A DNA stretch of 64,000 bases, from assembly GCF_039542385.1 (NCBI RefSeq), contig NZ_BAABIA010000013.1, positions 1 to 64,000 on the forward strand, read 5' to 3'. This DNA comes from Prosthecobacter algae (GTDB taxonomy: Bacteria > Verrucomicrobiota > Verrucomicrobiia > Verrucomicrobiales > Verrucomicrobiaceae). The notes under the pieces were generated by a model. It saw only the letters and a list, made by a program, of their open reading frames with translations. It had not been told where the DNA came from and made no database searches. Made by a program: the position numbers and the translations under genes. This document shows positions 44,385 through 59,340 of this stretch, piece by piece. The first letter of the stretch is position 1, and the number at the start of each line of letters is the position of its first letter.

Positions 44385-44410
44385 CCTTCGTCTGCACGCA
44401 TGCTTTCCTG

Positions 44411-44438
44411 GCGCTCCGGTTTTCCGGAGCGCTTTTTT
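44411..44438 (+). terminator. Terminator after the LEPR-type protein
   Basis: Nine-base arms GCGCTCCGG and CCGGAGCGC surround TTTT and lead into six T's, 27 bases after the stop codon. Confidence 0.9.
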
Positions 44439-44495
44439 GTTACAGTCCTGCTTCTAAAGCACTTGCTCTGCGGGCCGCCCATCCCACCATCCGGG

Positions 44496-46145
44496 GTGCT
44501 CTCCCGCCACATTCTCTGTTTCTGTGCTCCTCTATTGCTCCTCGCTAGCTGCATCGGCCCGCCCAAGGCCCCGCGGGTGCGCGAGCCCGCATGGACCTGG
44601 CCCGGCCTGACGGAGCGGCGCGTGAGCGTGAATCTGGAGCGTGCGGCGGAGGCCTGGGATGCGATGCAAGATCCACGTGCCAGCCGCCAGGAAAAGCAGC
44701 AGGCCGAGGCCGCCTATGAGCGTGCGCTGGGCTTCATGCTGAAGGACTGGGCGCGCGGGGAACTGCCGCGTGATTGGGAAACCGGAACCGTTTTTGAAGG
44801 CAAGAAAGGCAGCTATGCGGTGAACCTGCAGCCGGGACCTGGAAATCCCCTGGAGGTGTCGCCCGCGAGCCTAGACCGCCTCATCCTGGCGGATAGGGTG
44901 CGCATCTCACGGGATTGTGAACCGGTCATCGAGCCTGGGCTGGGCGTGCCTGTTGTCGGGCAGGTGCTGCATTCGGAAGAACTGGCCGCGAAGTACCCGA
45001 TGATGCCGCTGAACGGCGCGCAACTGACGCTGACGGCGGTGCTGGAATTTGACCCGCCCCAGGCCGACCAGCCGCGTGCCTGCCACCTGCATTTTTACAA
45101 TCCTCTGCGCCAGCCCAAAGCGACCGTGGCCGGGCGCAGCACCACGCTGGCGGCGAACTACACGGCCTCGAAGGAGCTGGCGCTCAACGATGGTTTCCTA
45201 CGCCGTTTTTCCCTCACCGGCCTGCTGTTTCCAGACAAGGTGCTGGACGATGCCGAGCTTTATCGCCTGGAGATTTATGATCCCAACCGCATCCCCGTGG
45301 TCTTCGTGCATGGGCTGATGTCAGACCCCCACATCTGGTACAACACGATCAACGCCATCTACTCCGATCCTGAACTGCGGGCGCACTACCAGCCCTGGTA
45401 CTTCCTTTACCCCTCCGGCATGGCCGTGCCCGCCACCTCCTGGCAGCTCCGTCAATCGCTGGAACAGGCCCGCGCGAGGCTGGACCCGGAGGGCGATGAC
45501 CCTGGCATGAACCGCATGGTCATGGTGGGCCACAGCATGGGCGGCCTGCTCAGCCGGATGCAGACCATCGACAGCGGCGATGGCCTGTGGAACGCCTACT
45601 TCAACTGCGAGGCGGAAAAGCTCATGGTTTCCAAGTCCACCCTGCAACGGCTGAAGGAAACGCTGCGCTTTGAAAAGCAGCCTTACATCAAGCGGCTCAT
45701 CTTCATCGCCGTGCCGCATAAGGGCAGCTCCATGGCAGATCGCGGCATCGTCTCGCGCCTCTCCACCCTCATTCGTCTGCCCACAGATTCCATGGTGCTG
45801 GCGAAGGAGATCGTCACCGGGAACATAGATTCCCTCACCCCGCAGATGCGGGACTGGGGCACCTTTGGGTTCGTCAGCCTGGGCACGCTGTCGCCCCGGC
45901 ACCCTTATTTGAAGGCGCTGAACGCACAGCCCATTCCGGTGCCGCATCACAGCATCGTCGGCCAGTTTGGCAAAGGCCCGCTGGAGGACAGCAGCGATCG
46001 AGTCGTACCCTACACGAGTTCCCACCTCGCCACCGGGACCGAGGTGGTGGTGCCCTACTGGCATGGCTGCGTGGAAAAACCCGAGGTCATCGCCGAGGTG
46101 AAACGCCGCCTGAAACAGCACCTGCGCGAAAGCGGCAAGCTGTGA
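44496..46145 (+). CDS. Predicted lipoprotein with an alpha/beta-hydrolase domain
   Basis: About 549 residues when started at GTG 44496. That start gives a textbook lipoprotein signal (LSRHILCFCAPLLLLASC, lipobox LASC) and leaves the terminator at 44411 outside the gene; the open frame reaches back to 44400 through the terminator. The C-terminal half is a hydrolase: VFVHGLMSDPHIWYNTI, HYQPWYFLYPSGMAVPA, the nucleophile elbow MVGHSMGGLLSR, and IFIAVPHKGSS. It is probably an outer-membrane-anchored lipase or esterase. Family exact assignment (lipase class 2 / PGAP1-like) is uncertain. Confidence 0.82.
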   Translation: MLSRHILCFCAPLLLLASCIGPPKAPRVREPAWTWPGLTERRVSVNLERAAEAWDAMQDPRASRQEKQQAEAAYERALGFMLKDWARGELPRDWETGTVFEGKKGSYAVNLQPGPGNPLEVSPASLDRLILADRVRISRDCEPVIEPGLGVPVVGQVLHSEELAAKYPMMPLNGAQLTLTAVLEFDPPQADQPRACHLHFYNPLRQPKATVAGRSTTLAANYTASKELALNDGFLRRFSLTGLLFPDKVLDDAELYRLEIYDPNRIPVVFVHGLMSDPHIWYNTINAIYSDPELRAHYQPWYFLYPSGMAVPATSWQLRQSLEQARARLDPEGDDPGMNRMVMVGHSMGGLLSRMQTIDSGDGLWNAYFNCEAEKLMVSKSTLQRLKETLRFEKQPYIKRLIFIAVPHKGSSMADRGIVSRLSTLIRLPTDSMVLAKEIVTGNIDSLTPQMRDWGTFGFVSLGTLSPRHPYLKALNAQPIPVPHHSIVGQFGKGPLEDSSDRVVPYTSSHLATGTEVVVPYWHGCVEKPEVIAEVKRRLKQHLRESGKL

Positions 46146-49104: not shown

Positions 49105-49267
49105 GAAATCAGAGGCGAATGGTTGATTGCAGGAGCTTGGATCCAGTCTGGCTGTTGGGTGGGAGAATGTGTCACTCAGCATAAGGGCTGTGATGGGAGG
49201 AGAAAAGAACAGGTTATGGTTTAGCGCTTGCCATTAGCACCCGAAATGGAGTGTGAATCATGCTGCC

Positions 49268-49903
49268 ATGAAAAAAGCTCTTTTATGTGTCTTCCTGTTC
49301 TTCACTTCTATTCGAGGCAGTGTCGCAACCTATCTTGAGCTGGTAGAAGCTGGCCAAATGGATCTCACACTGGATCGGACAGGCGTGATGCATGGCATTG
49401 TGAGTGAAATTTCAGCCTATGGCCTCTTTGGGGCCTGTGTGGTGCGTGAGGTTCGTCCGGTGGTTTTTACGGCGGTGTACTTAGAAGAGGCAGTTTTTGA
49501 ATACGCTTTATGTCATGTGATTATTGAACTTACTCTCAAAGAGGACCTTCAAAAGGCTGGGGAATCTCGACAAGAATATCTTATCCTCGTTTGCAGGGAC
49601 AAGTATCGACAAGACAGTCTTTGGGAACTGCGAACCCGAACGGGGGATTACAGCTCCAAGTTTAGCAATGTGGGGGTATTGCCACTAGAAAAGGGATCAA
49701 CGAACCTGCAACCACTGTGGGAGTTTCTGGTGCACTGGGATGTTTTGGAGGGGTTTCGGAAACCGCCGACTAAAAAAGAATCCGTTGGGCTTTGCTTCAA
49801 AGTGTACAAGGAAATTTATGCCCAGATTCTCAAGGGAACAGCAGAGAAGGACTTTTTTAACTACATCAAAGATCATTTTCCAGATGTGAGCCTTCCTCAA
49901 TAA
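49268..49903 (+). CDS. Hypothetical secreted protein
   Basis: 211 residues from ATG 49268 (the frame extends five codons to a GTG at 49253). The N-terminus KKALLCVFLFFTSIRGSVA is a signal peptide. The rest has no recognised domain; charged and aromatic segments such as EYLILVCRDKYRQDSLWELRTRTGDYSS and GLCFKVYKEIYAQIL suggest a small folded domain. The base composition is visibly lower in G+C than neighbouring genes (for example near 49500-49900), consistent with horizontal origin or weak constraint. Followed by a 208-base region (49904-50111) in which I see nothing. Confidence 0.55.
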   Translation: MKKALLCVFLFFTSIRGSVATYLELVEAGQMDLTLDRTGVMHGIVSEISAYGLFGACVVREVRPVVFTAVYLEEAVFEYALCHVIIELTLKEDLQKAGESRQEYLILVCRDKYRQDSLWELRTRTGDYSSKFSNVGVLPLEKGSTNLQPLWEFLVHWDVLEGFRKPPTKKESVGLCFKVYKEIYAQILKGTAEKDFFNYIKDHFPDVSLPQ

Positions 49904-50111: not shown

Positions 50112-50834
50112 ATGAAAGCACGTTTCCTCATTCCTGCCTTTGCCGCGCTGGCCTTCGCCGTCTCCGCTGCTGAACCTGTCCAGATTTTTAATGGCAAAGA
50201 CCTCACGGGCTGGGAGGGGAACAAGGACCTCTGGAGTGTGCAGGAGGGGACCATCACGGGCATCACGCCACCGGACCCGGCGGACCCGACCAAGGGCATC
50301 ATCAAGCACAACACCTTCCTCGTCTGGAAAGGCGGCACGGTGGGAGACTTTGAGCTAACCTTCAAATATCGCATCGAGAAGGGCAATTCCGGCGTGCAGT
50401 ATCGCAGCAAGGAACTCGCCGCCGGTGCCTTTGGCCCGGTGCTCAGCGGTTACCAGGCCGACTTTGAAGCGGGCAAGAAATACAGCGGCATCCTCTATGA
50501 GGAAAAGGGCCGTGGCATCCTGGCCCTGCGCGGGGAAAAGACGGTGATCAAGCCGGCGGCTGACGGTGGCAAAAAGACCGTGGTCGAAAAAGCCGGCACG
50601 GTGGGCGATAGCGAGGCGATCCAGGCCAGCATCAAAAGCGAAGACTGGAACGAGTACAAAATCGTCGCCAAGGGCAACCACGTGCAGCATTTCATCAATG
50701 GTCAGCAGACCATCGACGTGACGGATGAAGACGCCGCCAATGCACCGAAGGAAGGCCTGCTGGGTCTGCAGATCCACCAGGGTCCGCCGATGAAGGTGCA
50801 GTTCAAGGATTTCAACCTGGTCCCCCTGAAGTAG
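50112..50834 (+). CDS. DUF1080 (3-keto-disaccharide hydrolase domain) protein
   Basis: A 240-residue secreted protein. The signal peptide MKARFLIPAFAALAFAVSAA is followed by a concanavalin-like jelly-roll domain: PVQIFNGKDLTGWEGNKDLW, VWKGGTVGDFELTFKYRIEKGNSGVQYRS, and GLLGLQIHQGPPMKVQFKDFNLVPLK. These match the DUF1080 family, now linked to 3-keto-disaccharide and related glycoside hydrolysis in Planctomycetes, Verrucomicrobia and Bacteroidetes. The substrate in this organism is unknown. The start has no strong ribosome site. It stands alone but lies just ahead of another secreted protein gene in the same direction. Confidence 0.9.
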   Translation: MKARFLIPAFAALAFAVSAAEPVQIFNGKDLTGWEGNKDLWSVQEGTITGITPPDPADPTKGIIKHNTFLVWKGGTVGDFELTFKYRIEKGNSGVQYRSKELAAGAFGPVLSGYQADFEAGKKYSGILYEEKGRGILALRGEKTVIKPAADGGKKTVVEKAGTVGDSEAIQASIKSEDWNEYKIVAKGNHVQHFINGQQTIDVTDEDAANAPKEGLLGLQIHQGPPMKVQFKDFNLVPLK

Positions 50835-50873: not shown

Positions 50874-51608
50874 ATGTCCACACGCCCCCATTTGGTCAGA
50901 GCCGCGCTTCTCCTCCTGGTGACCTTGGTGCTTTCCTGCACCGCTGCCCAGGCCCAGAATGAATACATCATCTGTTCTGGCGGCCCGGCTTTGAGAAAGT
51001 GGGAGGACCTGCGCCAGCCCGCGCAGCAGCATGACCGCTGGTGGGGAAACTTCGTCCGCCCGGCCCGTGTGCGTATGCAGGAACTGCAGCGCACCCAGCC
51101 GAAGGGCACCATCATCACCTGGCTGGTGTATCGGGATGCCTACCTGCGCCGTGCGGGGGAGGATCGCGATCCGCTGACCAGCCACGTGGAGTCGGTGCAG
51201 AGCACCTATGGCATCAATCTGGTGTGGTTCCGCACGAAGGAAGACGTGATCAATTACATCAACCGGGGCGGCGGTTCCGTGTCCCGTGCCCGCAGCAAGA
51301 TCTCGGGTTTCGAGTTCTTCGGCCACTCGAACAAGTATTGTTTCCTGTTTGATTACAGCTCCGACGTGTATGCGGCCTCCACCACGTGGCTGCATGAAAA
51401 CGACCTGCCAAGGCTGAACCGCAGCGCCTTTGCCCGTGGGGCCTACTGCCAGAGCTGGGGCTGCCACACGGGGGAAAGCATGAGCCGGGCCTGGAAGAAG
51501 GCCACCGGGGCACCGATGATCGGCGCGATCGGCAAGACGGACTACTCCTTCATGCACCTGCGCGGCTGGAAGGTGGCGCTGGGGCAGGGCGGACGCTGGA
51601 CGCAGTAG
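50874..51608 (+). CDS. Secreted hypothetical protein with a possible His/Cys dyad
   Basis: A 244-residue protein with a signal peptide (VRAALLLLVTLVLSCTAAQAQ); VLSC could also be a lipobox. The body resembles no family I can name. Two blocks look like the caspase-type layout: a strand with ISGFEFFGHSNKY (His151) and, 46 residues later, AYCQSWGCHTGESMSRAW (Cys197), each after a hydrophobic strand. Near the end, SFMHLRGWKVALGQ is conserved-looking. A cysteine-peptidase or related hydrolase activity is possible but unproven. It lies 40 bases after the DUF1080 gene and before bioB. Confidence 0.6.
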   Translation: MSTRPHLVRAALLLLVTLVLSCTAAQAQNEYIICSGGPALRKWEDLRQPAQQHDRWWGNFVRPARVRMQELQRTQPKGTIITWLVYRDAYLRRAGEDRDPLTSHVESVQSTYGINLVWFRTKEDVINYINRGGGSVSRARSKISGFEFFGHSNKYCFLFDYSSDVYAASTTWLHENDLPRLNRSAFARGAYCQSWGCHTGESMSRAWKKATGAPMIGAIGKTDYSFMHLRGWKVALGQGGRWTQ

Positions 51609-51702: not shown

Positions 51703-52713
51703 ATGAACTACGCCGACCTCCATCGCATCTACCACCAGCCTTTTTTTGACCTCATCAAGCAGGCCCGTGCCGTCCATGAAGAGCATTGGACCGGCAACGA
51801 GGTGCAGCTTTGCACCCTCCTGAGCATCAAGACCGGTGGTTGCAGTGAAGACTGCGGTTACTGTGCCCAGAGCGCCCGCTACAGCACAGGTGTGCAGGCG
51901 GAGAAGCTGATGGAGAAGGCCGATGTCATGGAGCGCGCACGGGCAGCCCGGGCCAGTGGCTCCACCCGCTTTTGCATGGGCGCGGCCTGGAAGGGCGTGC
52001 GTGTGGGCACCCAGAAGTTTGACCAGGTGGTGGACATCGTGAAAGACGTGGCCACCCTGGGCATGGAAGTGTGCGTGACCCTGGGCCAACTTGGCGCTGA
52101 AGAAGCCGCCGTTCTGAAGGAAGCCGGCGTCACCGCCTACAACCACAACATTGACACGAGTCCGGAACACTACCCGAACATCGTCAGCACCCACACCTTT
52201 GAAGACCGCCTCAGCACCATCCGCCATGCGCAGGATGCGGGCATGTCCGTCTGCGCTGGTGGCATCCTCGGCCTGGGCGAAACCATCGAGGACCGCCTGA
52301 AAATGCTGGAAGTGCTCAGCAACTTCAATCCGCATCCAGAGAGCGTGCCGATCAATGCCCTGATGCCCATGAAGGGCACCCCGCTGGGCGGCAATGTGCA
52401 GGTGGATAGCTTCTCGCTCGTGCGCATGATCGCCGTCACCCGCATCGCCATCCCGCGTGCAAAGGTGCGCCTCAGCGCAGGTCGCACGAATCTGAGCCGC
52501 GAAGCCCAGGCCCTGGCCTTCTTTGCCGGTGCCAACTCTATCTTCTACGGTGACAAGCTGCTGACCGCGGCGAATCCGCAGGCTGAGGAAGATCTGGCGC
52601 TCATCCAGGCACTGGGCCTCAGCGCCCAGCAGCCGAACCCCGACATGAGCGCCCCGGTGGCAGACGAAGTGCGGGAACTGGCCCCGGCCTGCCACGTCAC
52701 TTGTGGTGCGTGA
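51703..52713 (+). CDS. bioB: Biotin synthase BioB
   Basis: A 336-residue radical-SAM enzyme that inserts sulfur into dethiobiotin. The [4Fe-4S] cluster motif is GGCSEDCGYCAQSARY (C-x-x-x-C-x-x-C). Further family blocks are AYNHNIDTSPEHYPNIVSTHTFEDRL, CAGGILGLGETIEDRL, VPINALMPMKGTPLG, VRLSAGRTNLSREAQALAFFAGANSIFYGDKLLT and the ligand positions for the second cluster. Length is typical. It is monocistronic, with a terminator 35 bases downstream. Other biotin genes are not in the window and no BirA operator is visible upstream. Confidence 0.96.
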   Translation: MNYADLHRIYHQPFFDLIKQARAVHEEHWTGNEVQLCTLLSIKTGGCSEDCGYCAQSARYSTGVQAEKLMEKADVMERARAARASGSTRFCMGAAWKGVRVGTQKFDQVVDIVKDVATLGMEVCVTLGQLGAEEAAVLKEAGVTAYNHNIDTSPEHYPNIVSTHTFEDRLSTIRHAQDAGMSVCAGGILGLGETIEDRLKMLEVLSNFNPHPESVPINALMPMKGTPLGGNVQVDSFSLVRMIAVTRIAIPRAKVRLSAGRTNLSREAQALAFFAGANSIFYGDKLLTAANPQAEEDLALIQALGLSAQQPNPDMSAPVADEVRELAPACHVTCGA

Positions 52714-54129: not shown

Positions 54130-57100
54130 ATGAAGCGCCTTTTTTTGACCCTGCTGATGAGTTTTTCCGTGCCCTCTTTGGGGCAGCTCGTCTTTGACGG
54201 CAATACCGGATTAAACGGAGTGCAAAACGGGGCTGGCGTGTGGGATACTGGCACGGCGAACTGGTGGAACCCGACGCTCCTCTCTAACACCACCTGGAAT
54301 GATGGGCTGGCCCAATTTGGCAGTTCCTCCAGTGCCGTGGGCGGCACCATCACGGTCAACTCGGCCATCAATGCGACAGGTCTGGATTTCCTGCCACTGA
54401 GCGCCGCTCCCACCACCACGAACCAAGCCTATCATTTCAGTGGCACCGGATCGCTAAACCTCACCGGACCCGCGCCGATCATCAACATCGGTAATTTGAG
54501 CACCTCAGGGAGTAGCACAGCCGTCTCGGCGGTGAACTTTTTACTGCCCGTGAATGCCAACAATCTGACAATTCAGAAAAGCAGTGGCACGACGACTGGC
54601 TTCGTTCGCTTCACGGCGAACAACACCGGCCTCACGGGTCTGCTGACGTTGAAGGGGGATGCGGGCGGGATCTTTCTAGGCTTCGGTTCCCAGACCATTT
54701 TCCCCAATCTTACCGCGGTGGTGGTGGAGTCCAACTCGGTGGCGCAACTGTTAGGCACGGATGTTACTTACAATGTGCCTTTTCGCATTGCCGGCGGTGG
54801 CGGCACGACCAACTGGGGGGCCATCCGCATGGACTCCAGCGTGACCCTCGCAGGTGGTGTGGCCCTCATTGGTGATGCGCGCATCCACACGCACACCAAC
54901 GTCATCAATTCCTTCATCACCTCGCCGATCACGGAGATGGGCGGCAGCTACTCCTTCACCCGCACAGCGCTGCTGCCCACCACCGCCACGGCGGCACTTT
55001 CCATGACCTACACGGCGGCAAATACCTACACGGGGTCGACGAACTTTGGCCGTGCCGTGGTGCCTGCTTTCCCCACCTTTCCAGTCTCGGCAGAGGGGGG
55101 ACTTAACGTGCTCGATTTTGCTGCGGCGGGCGCACCCGCTTCAAACATCTTCTACAATGGGGTCACCCCGGGGGCGCTGAATCTCTTCGGCGGTCACGCG
55201 CTGACCACGGTGATGCGGCTGCGAGGCAAGGCTGGCGAAACCAGCAGCCAGACCTTTGGCGATGTGACGGTGGCGCAAAACCGCTCTGAGATCGAACTCA
55301 TCTCTGGGGCAGGGGGCACCATGAATCTGGCCCTGGGAGCACTGGGCCGCACGGGCAACGGCGTGCTTTCCATCAAGGAACCTGTTTCTGGCAGCATCAC
55401 GACGACGGTGCCCACCCCTTTCCTAGGGGCCTGGGCCACCTTCACCAGTGCCAGCGGCAGCAGCTCCTGGGCAGCCGCGCCGACGGGCACGCTCACGGGT
55501 TTCACCGGCGATACAGTGCATGCTACGGGCACCGTCCAGGCCGATGCCCCGGCGGCGAACCTGCAAGTAGGCAATGCTTCCACCCAGGCGGTGACCTTTG
55601 GCCCCGGCACAACGAACCTGAACACCGTATCCATGACGGATACCTGGTTAGGCCGTTCTCTGGACATGGGTGCTGGGCAGACCCTGCGGCTGGGGGCTGT
55701 GGGCGGCTTTCAGGCGGTCAGCGGTGCCTATGGACTTACGGTGAACGGGGGGAAGCTGACAGCAGGTGGGGCGGATAACACGGTGGGGCAGGTGATCCTA
55801 ACCAACTTTTCCACATCGGATATGACCGTGAATTCTGTCATTGAAAACAATGGAACCGGAGCTGTGAGTGTGCTGCTGAACGGCCCCGGCAAGACGGTGC
55901 TGGCAGGGGCCAATAGCTACACGGGCCAGACGACGGTGAACAGTGGCAGCCTGGAGATCCGCCACGGTACGGCCCTGGGCACTGGGGCAGGTTACACCCA
56001 GGTCCTCACCGGGGCTTCGCTGCTGCTTTCTGGTGGCATCAGCACGGCGGAGCAAATCATTCTTTCAGGCCGTGGTGTGGACCTGGCCGGGGCATTGCGG
56101 AATGTCAGCGGCACCAATACCGTCACCACGCAGATGGTGGCCATCACGAATACGCGCATTCATTCGGATGCGGGGGAGTTGATCCTGAGTCCCGCAGGCG
56201 GTGCGACGGCGGTTTCCATCTCCGCCGCCACAGTGCCCATCACCTTTGGTGGCGCAGGCAACATCACGGTGACCGGGCGGGTCAATACCACCACCTCTTC
56301 TTCAGCCATCACCAAGGAGGGAACCGGCACCTTGGTCCTGGGGGGAGATAACATCTTTTCGGGCACGGTGACGATCTCGGCAGGCACGCTGCGCATCACG
56401 CATAACAATGCGTTAGGCACCGTGGGAACGGGCGCGACGACGACGGTGAGCAGCGGGGCTGCCCTGGAGTTGAGCGGTGGAATCACTACGCCTGAAAGCA
56501 TGAACGTCAGCGGGACGGGGGTGGGGAATCAGGGTGCGATCCGCAGCGTGAGCGGTAGCAACACGATGTCTGGAACGGTGACTTTGGGGGCCAACCTGCG
56601 CCTCCAGGCCGAGTCCGGCAGCACGCTGAACTTCGATGTGGCCAGCGGGAACTCGATCCTGCATTCCGGCACGGCCAGTATCTCAGTCACCTTTGCTGGC
56701 AATGGCACCATCAATGTGGCAGATCCCATCGCCAAGACAAGCACAGGCACGCTGGGCGTGACCAAGAGCGGCAATGGCAGCGCAAACATTCGCGGGGCCA
56801 GTCCTACGGTGAATGGCAGCATCACGGCAAATGGCGGCATTTTGAATCTGGACTTTGCCAACGCCCCAGTGGCCTCGGTGGACAATCTTTTGGGTTCGGG
56901 CGTGCCTGCCATTTTCAGCGGCGGGGTGCTGCAGGTGACGGGCCGCAGCGGCGGTACGGTGGGCCAGGCTTTTGGCGCGGTGACCGTCAGTCCCGGCAGC
57001 GGTGAACTGCGGGTGGTGCAAAACGGCGGGACGAATGTGAATGTGGCCCTGGGAGCCATCAGCCGTCCCTCCGCCGCAGCCATGCTGCGTTTCACCCCCG

Positions 57101-59340
57101 GCAGCAGCGGTGCGCTGACCACCACGGGCGGGGCGGACAATGCGGTGCTGACCAGTGACAGCATGGCCTTTGCCACCGTGGGTGCCAGCGACTGGGCCGC
57201 CACGGGCGTCTTGAGCGGTGGTGTGCGCAGCATTGTGGGCCTCTCCAGCATCGCTGGTGGTTATACGAATACTTCAGGAGGGGCACTTGCAGGCCACGCC
57301 GATGTGACCACGGCGACCGTGAGTGTGCCGGATAACCTAACCACAAGCACGGTGCGCTTTAATACAGCGGGTGGCAGCGCGGTGACGATTGCTGCGGGGA
57401 AGATTCTCTCGACAGGAGGCATCCTCGTCGGGGAGGGGGCCGGAGCCACCGATGTGACCCTCAGCGGCGGCATCCTGCGCAGCAGCTCCACCAACATCTC
57501 TTCTTCTGTGGCAGATCTGATGGTAATCCAGAACAACACGGCGGCGGGTTTGATCATCAGTTCCGTCATTGCCAACAATGCCACCGCCAGTTCCACCACG
57601 GGCTTTACTAAAACGGGTCCGGGCACGGTGTATCTCGATACGGTTTCCCACACTTACACGGGCACCACACGGGTGGTGAATGGGATGCTCCATCTGCGCT
57701 CGGGCAACATTTCGGCCAGCTCGGAAGTGACCCTGGGGGCGGGCAGCACCAGTGGGGTGCTGAAGCTGGGTAGCGGCAGCACGGCCGTCTCATTGGCAGT
57801 GGACTGGCTGCGCACGGATGGCACCGGCACGGGCAATGCCGTGGTGGGCGGTGCCACGGCGTACTCCACTTTCACCCTGGATAACAACACCGTGGCCAGT
57901 GACTTCCGTGCAGGCATGCTCGGCGGGACCGGGGTGAATGAAGATAACTTAAACTTCCGCCTCACCACAGGCGGTTCGCTGGTGGCGACTCTCGGGCCTG
58001 CCAATACTTACAAAGGCAAGACGACCATGCTGGCCGGGGTCATTGAAGCCACCCTGCTGGCGAATGCCGGGCTGCCCAGCTCCCTGGGACGTGGCGATCA
58101 GAATGCGGAATCCGCCATCATTGACATGACCGGGGCCACGGTGACTGGAGCAACTGTGCAGGCTGTCTCAACATTGCGTTACATCGGCAGTGTGGATTCC
58201 GTGACGGACCGCATCATTCGCATCACCAATTCGGATGTGATCGGCGATACTTTTTCCGTCTTGGCGAATCTGGAAAACAACGGCACAGGCACGGTGAAGT
58301 TCACCAGTCAGTTCCTTTCAGAAGGCAGCAATACAGCGCCACGCACGCTGCGCCTGGGCGGCACCCAGGTCGGCGCGAATGAGATCGCCGGCATCAGCAA
58401 TGCCTCTGTCGCAACGACGAGCCTTGAAAAATATGGCACCGGCTCATGGACCATCACTGGCGACAGCCCGCACACGGGCAGCACCACCGTGAGCAATGGC
58501 CTGCTCCAGCTTGGCAATGGCGGCACGACAGGCAGTGTGGCCAGCACAGAGATTTTTCTGAGTGCCCCCACCGCGATCCTCAGCACCAAACGCAGCGACA
58601 CCCTCACGATGCCGCAGGCCATCACGGGCACGGGCACTCTGCGGATTGACAACACCACGACGGGTGTCACTCGCCTAACCAGTGATGCCAATGCCTATGC
58701 CAATACGGTGGTGCAAAGCGGCAGCCTTTTGGCCAATAATGTTGCTTCCCTCAGCTCGGCTACTGGCACGGGACCGGTCTTGGTCAATCCAGGGGCGACT
58801 CTCGGCGGCACTGGGCGCATGGCCCCGGCATTGAACAACTCCATCACGATTGTGGCAGGCACGCTGAGCGTGGGGGACTTCACCTTATCGAGTCCAACGG
58901 CGGCGGATCTAATCCTGACCACCAGTGGCACTGGCAGCCTGTCCTTGCAGGCGGGTTCCGTCTTTGCCTTTGATCTTTTCAGTGGCGCGGGTTTGGGCGA
59001 CAACACGCTGACGAGCACGGCGGCAGACCTGGCGGTGATCCTGGGCCGGGTCAGCCTCGGCACGGACATCACCCTGCGGGTCAGCAATCCGAACGGGATG
59101 ACGGGTTTTGCCGCAAATGATTCCTGGAAAATCTTCGACTGGTCAGGCCTTACAGAGCCTGTCAGCGGCAGCTTTACAGCTATGGATCTGCCAACTTTGA
59201 GCGGTGGCCTGACCTGGGATCTCAGCGAGCTTTACACCGGTGGCATCCTCAGCATCGCCCTGGTGCCTGAGCCTTCACGGCTGGTGCTGGTGATGCTCGG
59301 TTTTGCGGCTTTGTTGGTTAGGCGTCGGCGGGTTGCCTGA
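54130..59340 (+). CDS. Giant autotransporter-type beta-repeat protein with PEP-CTERM tail
   Basis: A 1736-residue secreted protein. The signal peptide is MKRLFLTLLMSFSVPSLGQ. The body is a long parallel beta-helix made of autotransporter-associated beta-strand repeats, with recurring units of the form GTGTLVLGGDNIFSGTVTI and NSYTGQTTVNSGSLEIRHG ending in GTL or GSL. No beta-barrel translocator is present. The C-terminus is a PEP-CTERM sorting signal: VPEPS, a membrane helix (RLVLVMLGFAALLV) and RRRRVA, the target of an exosortase that would anchor or release it. Some repeats carry Asn/Gly-rich turns. It is probably a surface or matrix protein. Its end overlaps the convergent gene by 23 bases. 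No close repeat copies were found elsewhere in the window. Confidence 0.9.
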   Translation: MKRLFLTLLMSFSVPSLGQLVFDGNTGLNGVQNGAGVWDTGTANWWNPTLLSNTTWNDGLAQFGSSSSAVGGTITVNSAINATGLDFLPLSAAPTTTNQAYHFSGTGSLNLTGPAPIINIGNLSTSGSSTAVSAVNFLLPVNANNLTIQKSSGTTTGFVRFTANNTGLTGLLTLKGDAGGIFLGFGSQTIFPNLTAVVVESNSVAQLLGTDVTYNVPFRIAGGGGTTNWGAIRMDSSVTLAGGVALIGDARIHTHTNVINSFITSPITEMGGSYSFTRTALLPTTATAALSMTYTAANTYTGSTNFGRAVVPAFPTFPVSAEGGLNVLDFAAAGAPASNIFYNGVTPGALNLFGGHALTTVMRLRGKAGETSSQTFGDVTVAQNRSEIELISGAGGTMNLALGALGRTGNGVLSIKEPVSGSITTTVPTPFLGAWATFTSASGSSSWAAAPTGTLTGFTGDTVHATGTVQADAPAANLQVGNASTQAVTFGPGTTNLNTVSMTDTWLGRSLDMGAGQTLRLGAVGGFQAVSGAYGLTVNGGKLTAGGADNTVGQVILTNFSTSDMTVNSVIENNGTGAVSVLLNGPGKTVLAGANSYTGQTTVNSGSLEIRHGTALGTGAGYTQVLTGASLLLSGGISTAEQIILSGRGVDLAGALRNVSGTNTVTTQMVAITNTRIHSDAGELILSPAGGATAVSISAATVPITFGGAGNITVTGRVNTTTSSSAITKEGTGTLVLGGDNIFSGTVTISAGTLRITHNNALGTVGTGATTTVSSGAALELSGGITTPESMNVSGTGVGNQGAIRSVSGSNTMSGTVTLGANLRLQAESGSTLNFDVASGNSILHSGTASISVTFAGNGTINVADPIAKTSTGTLGVTKSGNGSANIRGASPTVNGSITANGGILNLDFANAPVASVDNLLGSGVPAIFSGGVLQVTGRSGGTVGQAFGAVTVSPGSGELRVVQNGGTNVNVALGAISRPSAAAMLRFTPGSSGALTTTGGADNAVLTSDSMAFATVGASDWAATGVLSGGVRSIVGLSSIAGGYTNTSGGALAGHADVTTATVSVPDNLTTSTVRFNTAGGSAVTIAAGKILSTGGILVGEGAGATDVTLSGGILRSSSTNISSSVADLMVIQNNTAAGLIISSVIANNATASSTTGFTKTGPGTVYLDTVSHTYTGTTRVVNGMLHLRSGNISASSEVTLGAGSTSGVLKLGSGSTAVSLAVDWLRTDGTGTGNAVVGGATAYSTFTLDNNTVASDFRAGMLGGTGVNEDNLNFRLTTGGSLVATLGPANTYKGKTTMLAGVIEATLLANAGLPSSLGRGDQNAESAIIDMTGATVTGATVQAVSTLRYIGSVDSVTDRIIRITNSDVIGDTFSVLANLENNGTGTVKFTSQFLSEGSNTAPRTLRLGGTQVGANEIAGISNASVATTSLEKYGTGSWTITGDSPHTGSTTVSNGLLQLGNGGTTGSVASTEIFLSAPTAILSTKRSDTLTMPQAITGTGTLRIDNTTTGVTRLTSDANAYANTVVQSGSLLANNVASLSSATGTGPVLVNPGATLGGTGRMAPALNNSITIVAGTLSVGDFTLSSPTAADLILTTSGTGSLSLQAGSVFAFDLFSGAGLGDNTLTSTAADLAVILGRVSLGTDITLRVSNPNGMTGFAANDSWKIFDWSGLTEPVSGSFTAMDLPTLSGGLTWDLSELYTGGILSIALVPEPSRLVLVMLGFAALLVRRRRVA

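Follow-up and report, generated by a model that had tools for sequence, protein, structure and literature searches.

The stretch of Prosthecobacter algae DNA that we analysed, 64,000 nucleotides long and hereafter called the window, contains an intact open reading frame with an ATG start that is predicted to encode a small exported protein with a caspase-like fold. The gene, its features and its immediate neighbours are as follows:

50112..50834, + strand: 3-keto-disaccharide hydrolase-like gene, directly upstream (PF06439, E 4.5e-37)
50874..51608, + strand: coding sequence of the predicted secreted caspase-fold protein, 244 aa
50874..50957, + strand: N-terminal hydrophobic segment, residues 1–28, likely a Sec signal peptide (helix 5–20 in the model; putative cleavage site)
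51030..51053, + strand: HDxxWxNF block, residues 53–60, before the first long helix, a putative part of the substrate pocket
51324..51326, + strand: His151, predicted catalytic histidine, in GFEFFGHSN
51462..51464, + strand: Cys197, predicted catalytic nucleophile, in QSWGCHTGES
51531..51545, + strand: GKTDY loop, residues 220–224, after strand 215–219, a putative pocket loop with a conserved aromatic
51703..52713, + strand: bioB (biotin synthase; Radical SAM and BATS domains), directly downstream

The reading frame at 50874–51608 is real and under purifying selection; dN/dS against four close relatives was 0.037–0.13. It is separated by 39 bases from the sugar hydrolase-like gene and by 94 bases from bioB, which is followed by lpxD. 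On the plus strand, no terminator-like site turned up in a consensus scan between the caspase-fold gene and either neighbour. We surveyed this gene order at 66 loci, comprising 40 from named relatives (L032–L071), 20 wide loci from other genera (L100–L119) and 6 short loci partly from the same genomes (L072–L077); as some loci stop soon after the caspase-fold gene, the counts are lower bounds. The sugar hydrolase-like gene adjoined upstream at 28 of the 40 named, 2 of the 6 short and 0 of the 20 wide loci, and bioB came next on the same strand at 5, 2 and 6 of them, respectively, with 17–257 bp between the alignment ends of the two genes. No universal neighbour gene pointing to a substrate was found among the 66 loci. 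The order is thus real but not universal, and we draw no role for the caspase-fold protein from its neighbours, setting aside an operon function via bioB or the sugar hydrolase. This part of the window encodes two other products: one of 216 aa (49253–49903, + strand), which by inspection appears to have a signal peptide and which has no Pfam match, and one of 581 aa (44400–46145, + strand), whose alpha/beta hydrolase-like domain resembles PGAP1 weakly, below curated cut-offs.

The original prediction could not place the 244-residue protein in a known family, and searches with Pfam, NCBIfam, PHROGs, PADLOC and the PDB sequences returned nothing credible either. The queries were 32 family members for Pfam, PHROGs and PADLOC, and for NCBIfam the window protein and the relatives borne on Rhs proteins described below. 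At E ≤ 1, the 32 members matched eight Pfam families at chance level, none of them of the caspase clan, and we attribute these and the unrelated PHROG matches (the best with E 0.0089, in 1 of the 32 members) to chance. The Pfam library scanned does hold models for C13, C14 and CHAT and, presumably, those for C11, C25 and C80. Still, PF01650 (C13) matched neither the 32 members at E ≤ 1 nor the window protein at E ≤ 10, PF00656 (C14) matched neither the window protein nor the 32 members, and the curated CHAT, C11, C25 and C80 models found nothing among the 32. The profile search against the caspase clan, proposed as a check of the original prediction, therefore came out negative, and as far as curated models go the protein belongs to none of these families. 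The PDB sequence search gave no match to solved clan CD enzymes. A photosystem chain, ACPI-s (E 0.056), was rejected: it pairs a Cys with Cys197 but no His with His151, and the match was not reproduced by the family profile. Comparison with a local C14 profile by hhalign gave 0.2%, and 3.2% (score 23.5) with two Rhs-borne relatives added. A C13 Pfam match over the cut-off occurred in just 3 of 145 genomes. Because Pfam, NCBIfam, PHROGs and PADLOC offer no credible match, the protein looks like a member of an undescribed family inside a known superfamily. Among the open-access papers listed by our searches we found none on the family.

To describe conservation we used a first alignment of 98 relatives, leaving out one candidate (L031, E 0.184) that had no tblastn hit, and an enlarged one of 118 rows, to which 20 stretches from other lineages (19 family members and 1 Rhs-borne domain) had been added. 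The 118 rows represent 97 distinct sequences and 72 clusters at 90% identity; the aligned rows are a subset of the genome matches given below. Among the 98 relatives, E44, H53, D54, W57, F60, R67, R93, N130, H151, C197 and others were invariant. In the enlarged alignment G36, H53, D54, F60, R93, H151, Y161, C197 and W242 were found in 118 of 118 rows, W57 and N59 in 117, and Gly150, beside His151, likewise in 117, being replaced once. Within the GKTDY loop, T222 was kept in 117 rows, D223 in 108, and position 224 was Y or F in all 118. Conservation of H151 and C197 among homologues had been named as a test of the catalytic pair; invariant in 98 of 98 and then 118 of 118 sequences, the pair is, as judged from the alignments, far beyond chance.

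The structural evidence came from an AlphaFold2 model of the window protein with mean pLDDT 91.6 and pTM 0.86. The original prediction had proposed from the letters that hydrophobic strands lead to GHSN and GCHTGES with the setting of caspase-fold catalytic residues, and the model indeed places strands 141–149 and 186–194 so that they end just before H151 and C197. Clan CD enzymes are described as having an alpha/beta core in which the catalytic His and Cys end two equivalent strands, a glycine beside the catalytic His, and an aromatic residue conserved in the loop that follows the fifth strand (PMC4357240). In the model H151 follows strand 141–149 and C197 follows strand 186–194; the glycine corresponds to G150, and the aromatic at 224 would, if our topology-based assignment is correct, lie on the fifth-strand loop. 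We then ran VIA-align on the best 1000 PDB chains of Foldseek, treating Z differences within 1 as ties. Ranks 1–13 were all clan CD (caspase-fold) proteins with Z 12.1–10.2, the first other row having Z 9.0. The top match was chain K of GPI transamidase (Z 12.1, rmsd 3.7, 177 residues aligned), and further rows included legumain (11.5), asparaginyl endopeptidases and ligases, Tce1 (10.7) and SAVED-CHAT (10.3). Dehydrogenases appeared from Z 9.0, with gingipain K (8.2), a coral caspase (8.1) and a metacaspase (7.8) interspersed among them. Contrary evidence came from Foldseek alone: its PDB search yielded nothing at E ≤ 0.001, dehydrogenases headed the list, and the best 50 rows listed held 0 clan CD chains. 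The clan CD signal comes from the VIA-align re-ranking and from viral caspases in BFVD. The four best BFVD viral models, all from pithovirus-type viruses, were caspases or caspase-like; their E values ran from 1.2e-3 to 1.5e-2, and no row reached E ≤ 0.001.

A caspase (clan CD) fold with a catalytic-type His/Cys dyad is thus well supported for the window protein by the predicted model, and the structural comparison suggested with the original prediction bears it out. The protein could instead be catalytically dead, or bind a ligand via its conserved residues, the likeness to clan CD being structural only. The lack of a significant Foldseek match in the PDB and of any known activity would fit this reading, but the dyad is invariant in 118 of 118 rows and is retained also in Rhs-borne copies at about 25% identity, and we regard it as very improbable. 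According to PMC4357240, the substrate pocket of clan CD enzymes is formed by residues of the first helix or loop and of the loops that follow strands four and five; on the basis of this topology we infer that the HDxxWxNF block and the GKTDY loop belong to the substrate pocket of the modelled protein.

The legumains, asparaginyl endopeptidases and GPI transamidase of C13 occupied 11 of the first 13 VIA-align rows (Z 12.1–10.2) and share the placement of His and Cys after core strands; the CxxGxSM-like sequence that follows the Cys in the window family also resembles, we presume, the legumain motif. On the other hand, the window family has no PF01650 match and shows 8–14% identity to C13 enzymes in the structural alignments, and the window protein is bacterial, 244 aa long and without a pro-domain or C-terminal extension. 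With the C14 metacaspases and caspases it shares the superfamily fold, the coral caspase and metacaspase standing among dehydrogenases of like Z, yet the family lacks a PF00656 match. The window genome also encodes a separate C14 domain in a 505-aa open frame (G000 C1:317759–318442, − strand, L202; E 1.9e-36). Tce1, a putative cysteine protease effector of a type VI system (PDB 9qpe, the chain being taken as Tce1 from its residue range), aligned over 147 residues. Its catalytic domain is described with a His and a Cys, but Tce1 is loaded into Hcp and injected (PMC13323088), whereas the window protein has an export signal and no PDB sequence match.

The original prediction had the protein secreted or lipid-anchored, and for the family the first of the two is supported and the second is not. 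A crude hydropathy measure picked out a strongly hydrophobic segment ahead of the first strand in 94 of the 98 relatives. As for the other four, inspection placed the segment of L099 further upstream, before a proline-rich linker, and L006, L034 and L035 have no hydrophobic segment in frame. The window protein contains a weak lipobox, VLSC, but lipobox-like matches were found in only 6 of the 98 relatives, the window protein included. Judged from these segments, an export signal is usual in the family and lipid anchoring is not a family trait.

The gene is widespread in the class. Of 56 close genomes, counting that of the window, 52 had a match, as did 42 of the 43 of good quality. Phylum-wide, the single sequence found matches in 51 of 288 genomes; within the class, the profile search did so in 122 of 237, representing 51 of 123 genera. 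The relatives with names come from Prosthecobacter, Brevifollis, Terrimicrobiaceae, Akkermansia and other Verrucomicrobia, mostly as metagenome-assembled genomes. There was one match each in 119 of the 122 matching class genomes; the surplus comes from Rhs-borne copies in G268 and G495 and, in G456, from a fragment at a contig end that probably belongs to the gene already counted. Within the same order, 48 of 49 genomes carry the caspase-fold gene, G035 being the exception among the genomes listed; a C14 caspase domain is, however, encoded in that genome, whose completeness is 99%. Both genomes of 0.9 Mb (group f11) have the gene with the dyad intact. The profile search found no match in 115 of the 237 class genomes, so the function must be dispensable or replaced in many lineages. 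A mobile-element origin was rejected, with relatives absent from the records searched: none of the 20 pattern matches in viral contigs was a relative, 72,556 plasmids contained no relative of the window protein or the Rhs-borne domain, and 50,697 phage records contained none of the window protein, the sole query there.

The family profile also found three C-terminal domains of Rhs/YD-repeat proteins, all retaining the His and Cys, with identity to the window protein down to about 25%. These were in L173 (G495; E 1.8e-27, hhalign 99.2%), L131 (G268; E 1.4e-18, 98.5%) and L130 (G205; E 1.5e-8, 94.6%), against a maximum of 2.4% among 262 null open reading frames that were picked mechanically by length from the neighbourhoods, some of them not genes. 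The Rhs-borne features are the following, the two membrane-type frames being assigned by inspection:

L173:673–1755, − strand: Rhs-tip protein ending in the caspase-like domain
L173:295–639, − strand: 114-aa membrane-type open reading frame behind the Rhs-tip protein
L131:5074–6144, − strand: Akkermansia-like Rhs C-terminal caspase-like domain
L131:4577–5050, − strand: 157-aa membrane-type open reading frame behind the domain
L130:2785–3849, − strand: Rhs C-terminal domain bridging DUF4347 and the window family (PF14252, E 1e-6, over the Pfam cut-off)

In L173 a further Rhs-tip piece comes after the 114-aa frame, and the array looks like a polymorphic-toxin cassette array. The 157-aa frame of L131 has a relative at L132:3113–3673 (+ strand; BLASTP E 9e-14), which in G054 lies behind a copy of the domain that is truncated. 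An immunity protein would be expected to recur in this way, and the frame is a candidate immunity family. The Rhs core and the C-terminal domain of L131 are in different frames, and the gene may be inactive. Only four of 76 genomes of its genus reach E ≤ 1e-6, with a full-length match in one, which makes the Rhs-borne domain a rare accessory there. A model of the L131 domain, with family members in its alignment, had mean pLDDT 78.2; in VIA-align, ranks 1–14 were clan CD (Z 10.6–9.3) and dehydrogenases followed from Z 9.0, tied with rank 14, and Foldseek alone placed unrelated folds first.

The Rhs-borne copies thus look, from their arrangement, like polymorphic-toxin cassettes. Caspase-like toxin domains (Tox-Caspase) of polymorphic toxins have already been described (PMC3482391), and the Rhs-borne relatives agree with them in having an intact His/Cys domain C-terminally, two of them with a small membrane-type open reading frame behind. 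The window protein differs from that architecture: it has an export signal, no Rhs part, and a stand-alone reading frame between the sugar hydrolase-like gene and bioB. Reuse of the domain at the end of Rhs/YD-repeat proteins, together with the toxin domains of PMC3482391, could mean that the window protein is itself an antibacterial effector, or a secreted protease for scavenging or defence, and not a housekeeping processing enzyme. The stand-alone gene is, however, usually single-copy, slowly evolving and kept in the two 0.9 Mb genomes, and there was no Rhs protein among the neighbours looked at around it. We give this explanation only a small chance of being right.

The L130 domain also linked the window family to DUF4347 (PF14252), which has the same motif order of strand-HG, strand-YGCN or YGCD, and then a conserved strand, but which has no match in the window protein or the 32 members. 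The direct profile comparison gave 3.9% and a score of 23.0 against a maximum of 22.6 in the 262 frames, and 17 single DUF4347 sequences compared with the family gave 0.2–2.5%. With two Rhs relatives added and L130 left out, the comparison reached 15.9% and a score of 27.9 against ≤21.3 in 60 column shuffles, a single reversal serving as a further control. When L130 was included, the comparison through A6 reached 60.6%, a value that is partly circular. The window family may thus be tied to DUF4347 through the L130 bridge, the direct tie being weak.

Taken together, we consider the protein to be quite probably an exported, stand-alone clan CD cysteine enzyme, in the first place an envelope endopeptidase or else a transpeptidase. 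Its activity, its preference for a basic P1 residue, its specificity and its cellular role are here inferred. The protein would be exported and its signal peptide removed, after which Cys197, activated by His151, would attack a peptide bond. The HDxxWxNF block and the GKTDY loop would choose the P1 side chain, and the acids D54 and D223 weakly suggest a basic residue there. As there is no room for a pro-domain, the enzyme would have to be constitutively active and act on a narrow substrate, or else depend on a partner for its control. The gene being usually single-copy and kept even in the two 0.9 Mb genomes, we favour a conserved specific envelope substrate, that is, maturation of an envelope protein, over bulk nutrition. 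The toxin-cassette-like setting of the Rhs-borne copies suggests that such activity can harm a bacterial cell.

The enzyme could also be purely a transpeptidase or ligase, joining the new C-terminus of its substrate to an amine instead of hydrolysing the bond. GPI transamidase as the best single structural match and peptide ligases such as VyPAL2 among the top VIA-align rows are consistent with that, but the tied rows mix hydrolases and ligases and the fold cannot tell hydrolysis from ligation. Nor does the sorting partner that we tested, exosortase (PF09721), share the phyletic pattern of the gene. That partnership was considered because of the GPI transamidase match and a PEP-CTERM-like autotransporter in the window (54130–59340, + strand). 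The latter is an autotransporter-like product of 1736 aa that carries PATR repeats and whose weak PEP-CTERM end scores below the cut-off. The caspase-fold gene is present without exosortase in 6 of 6 genomes of group f8, 2 of 2 of f11 and 1 of 1 of f19, and genomes of f9 and f7 have exosortase but no caspase-fold gene was found in them; an exosortase/PEP-CTERM partnership is ruled out by this pattern. We think a ligase without hydrolase activity unlikely, and retain the envelope endopeptidase as the leading explanation.

Bacterial caspase-fold enzymes are mostly multi-domain regulators, virulence proteases or parts of toxins. The setting found here is unusual: exported, stand-alone, without a pro-domain, usually single-copy and distributed class-wide. 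In a survey of Akkermansia peptidases based on MEROPS, the examples given of cysteine peptidases of the genus ancestor are C26 and C82A (PMC10540074). We tentatively suggest, and with less confidence than in the enzyme itself, that this new clan CD family may provide Verrucomicrobiae with a widespread, single-copy enzyme for processing a conserved envelope substrate, and may have a common origin with Rhs toxin warheads, as either a weaponised housekeeping protease or a domesticated toxin. The Rhs-borne copies provide a direct experimental handle on the activity. Many members of the class keep the gene, usually as a single copy, and the four family libraries scanned give it no name; a small exported caspase-fold enzyme so widely kept would point to a seemingly unstudied envelope processing step in Verrucomicrobiae, including Akkermansia-like gut bacteria.
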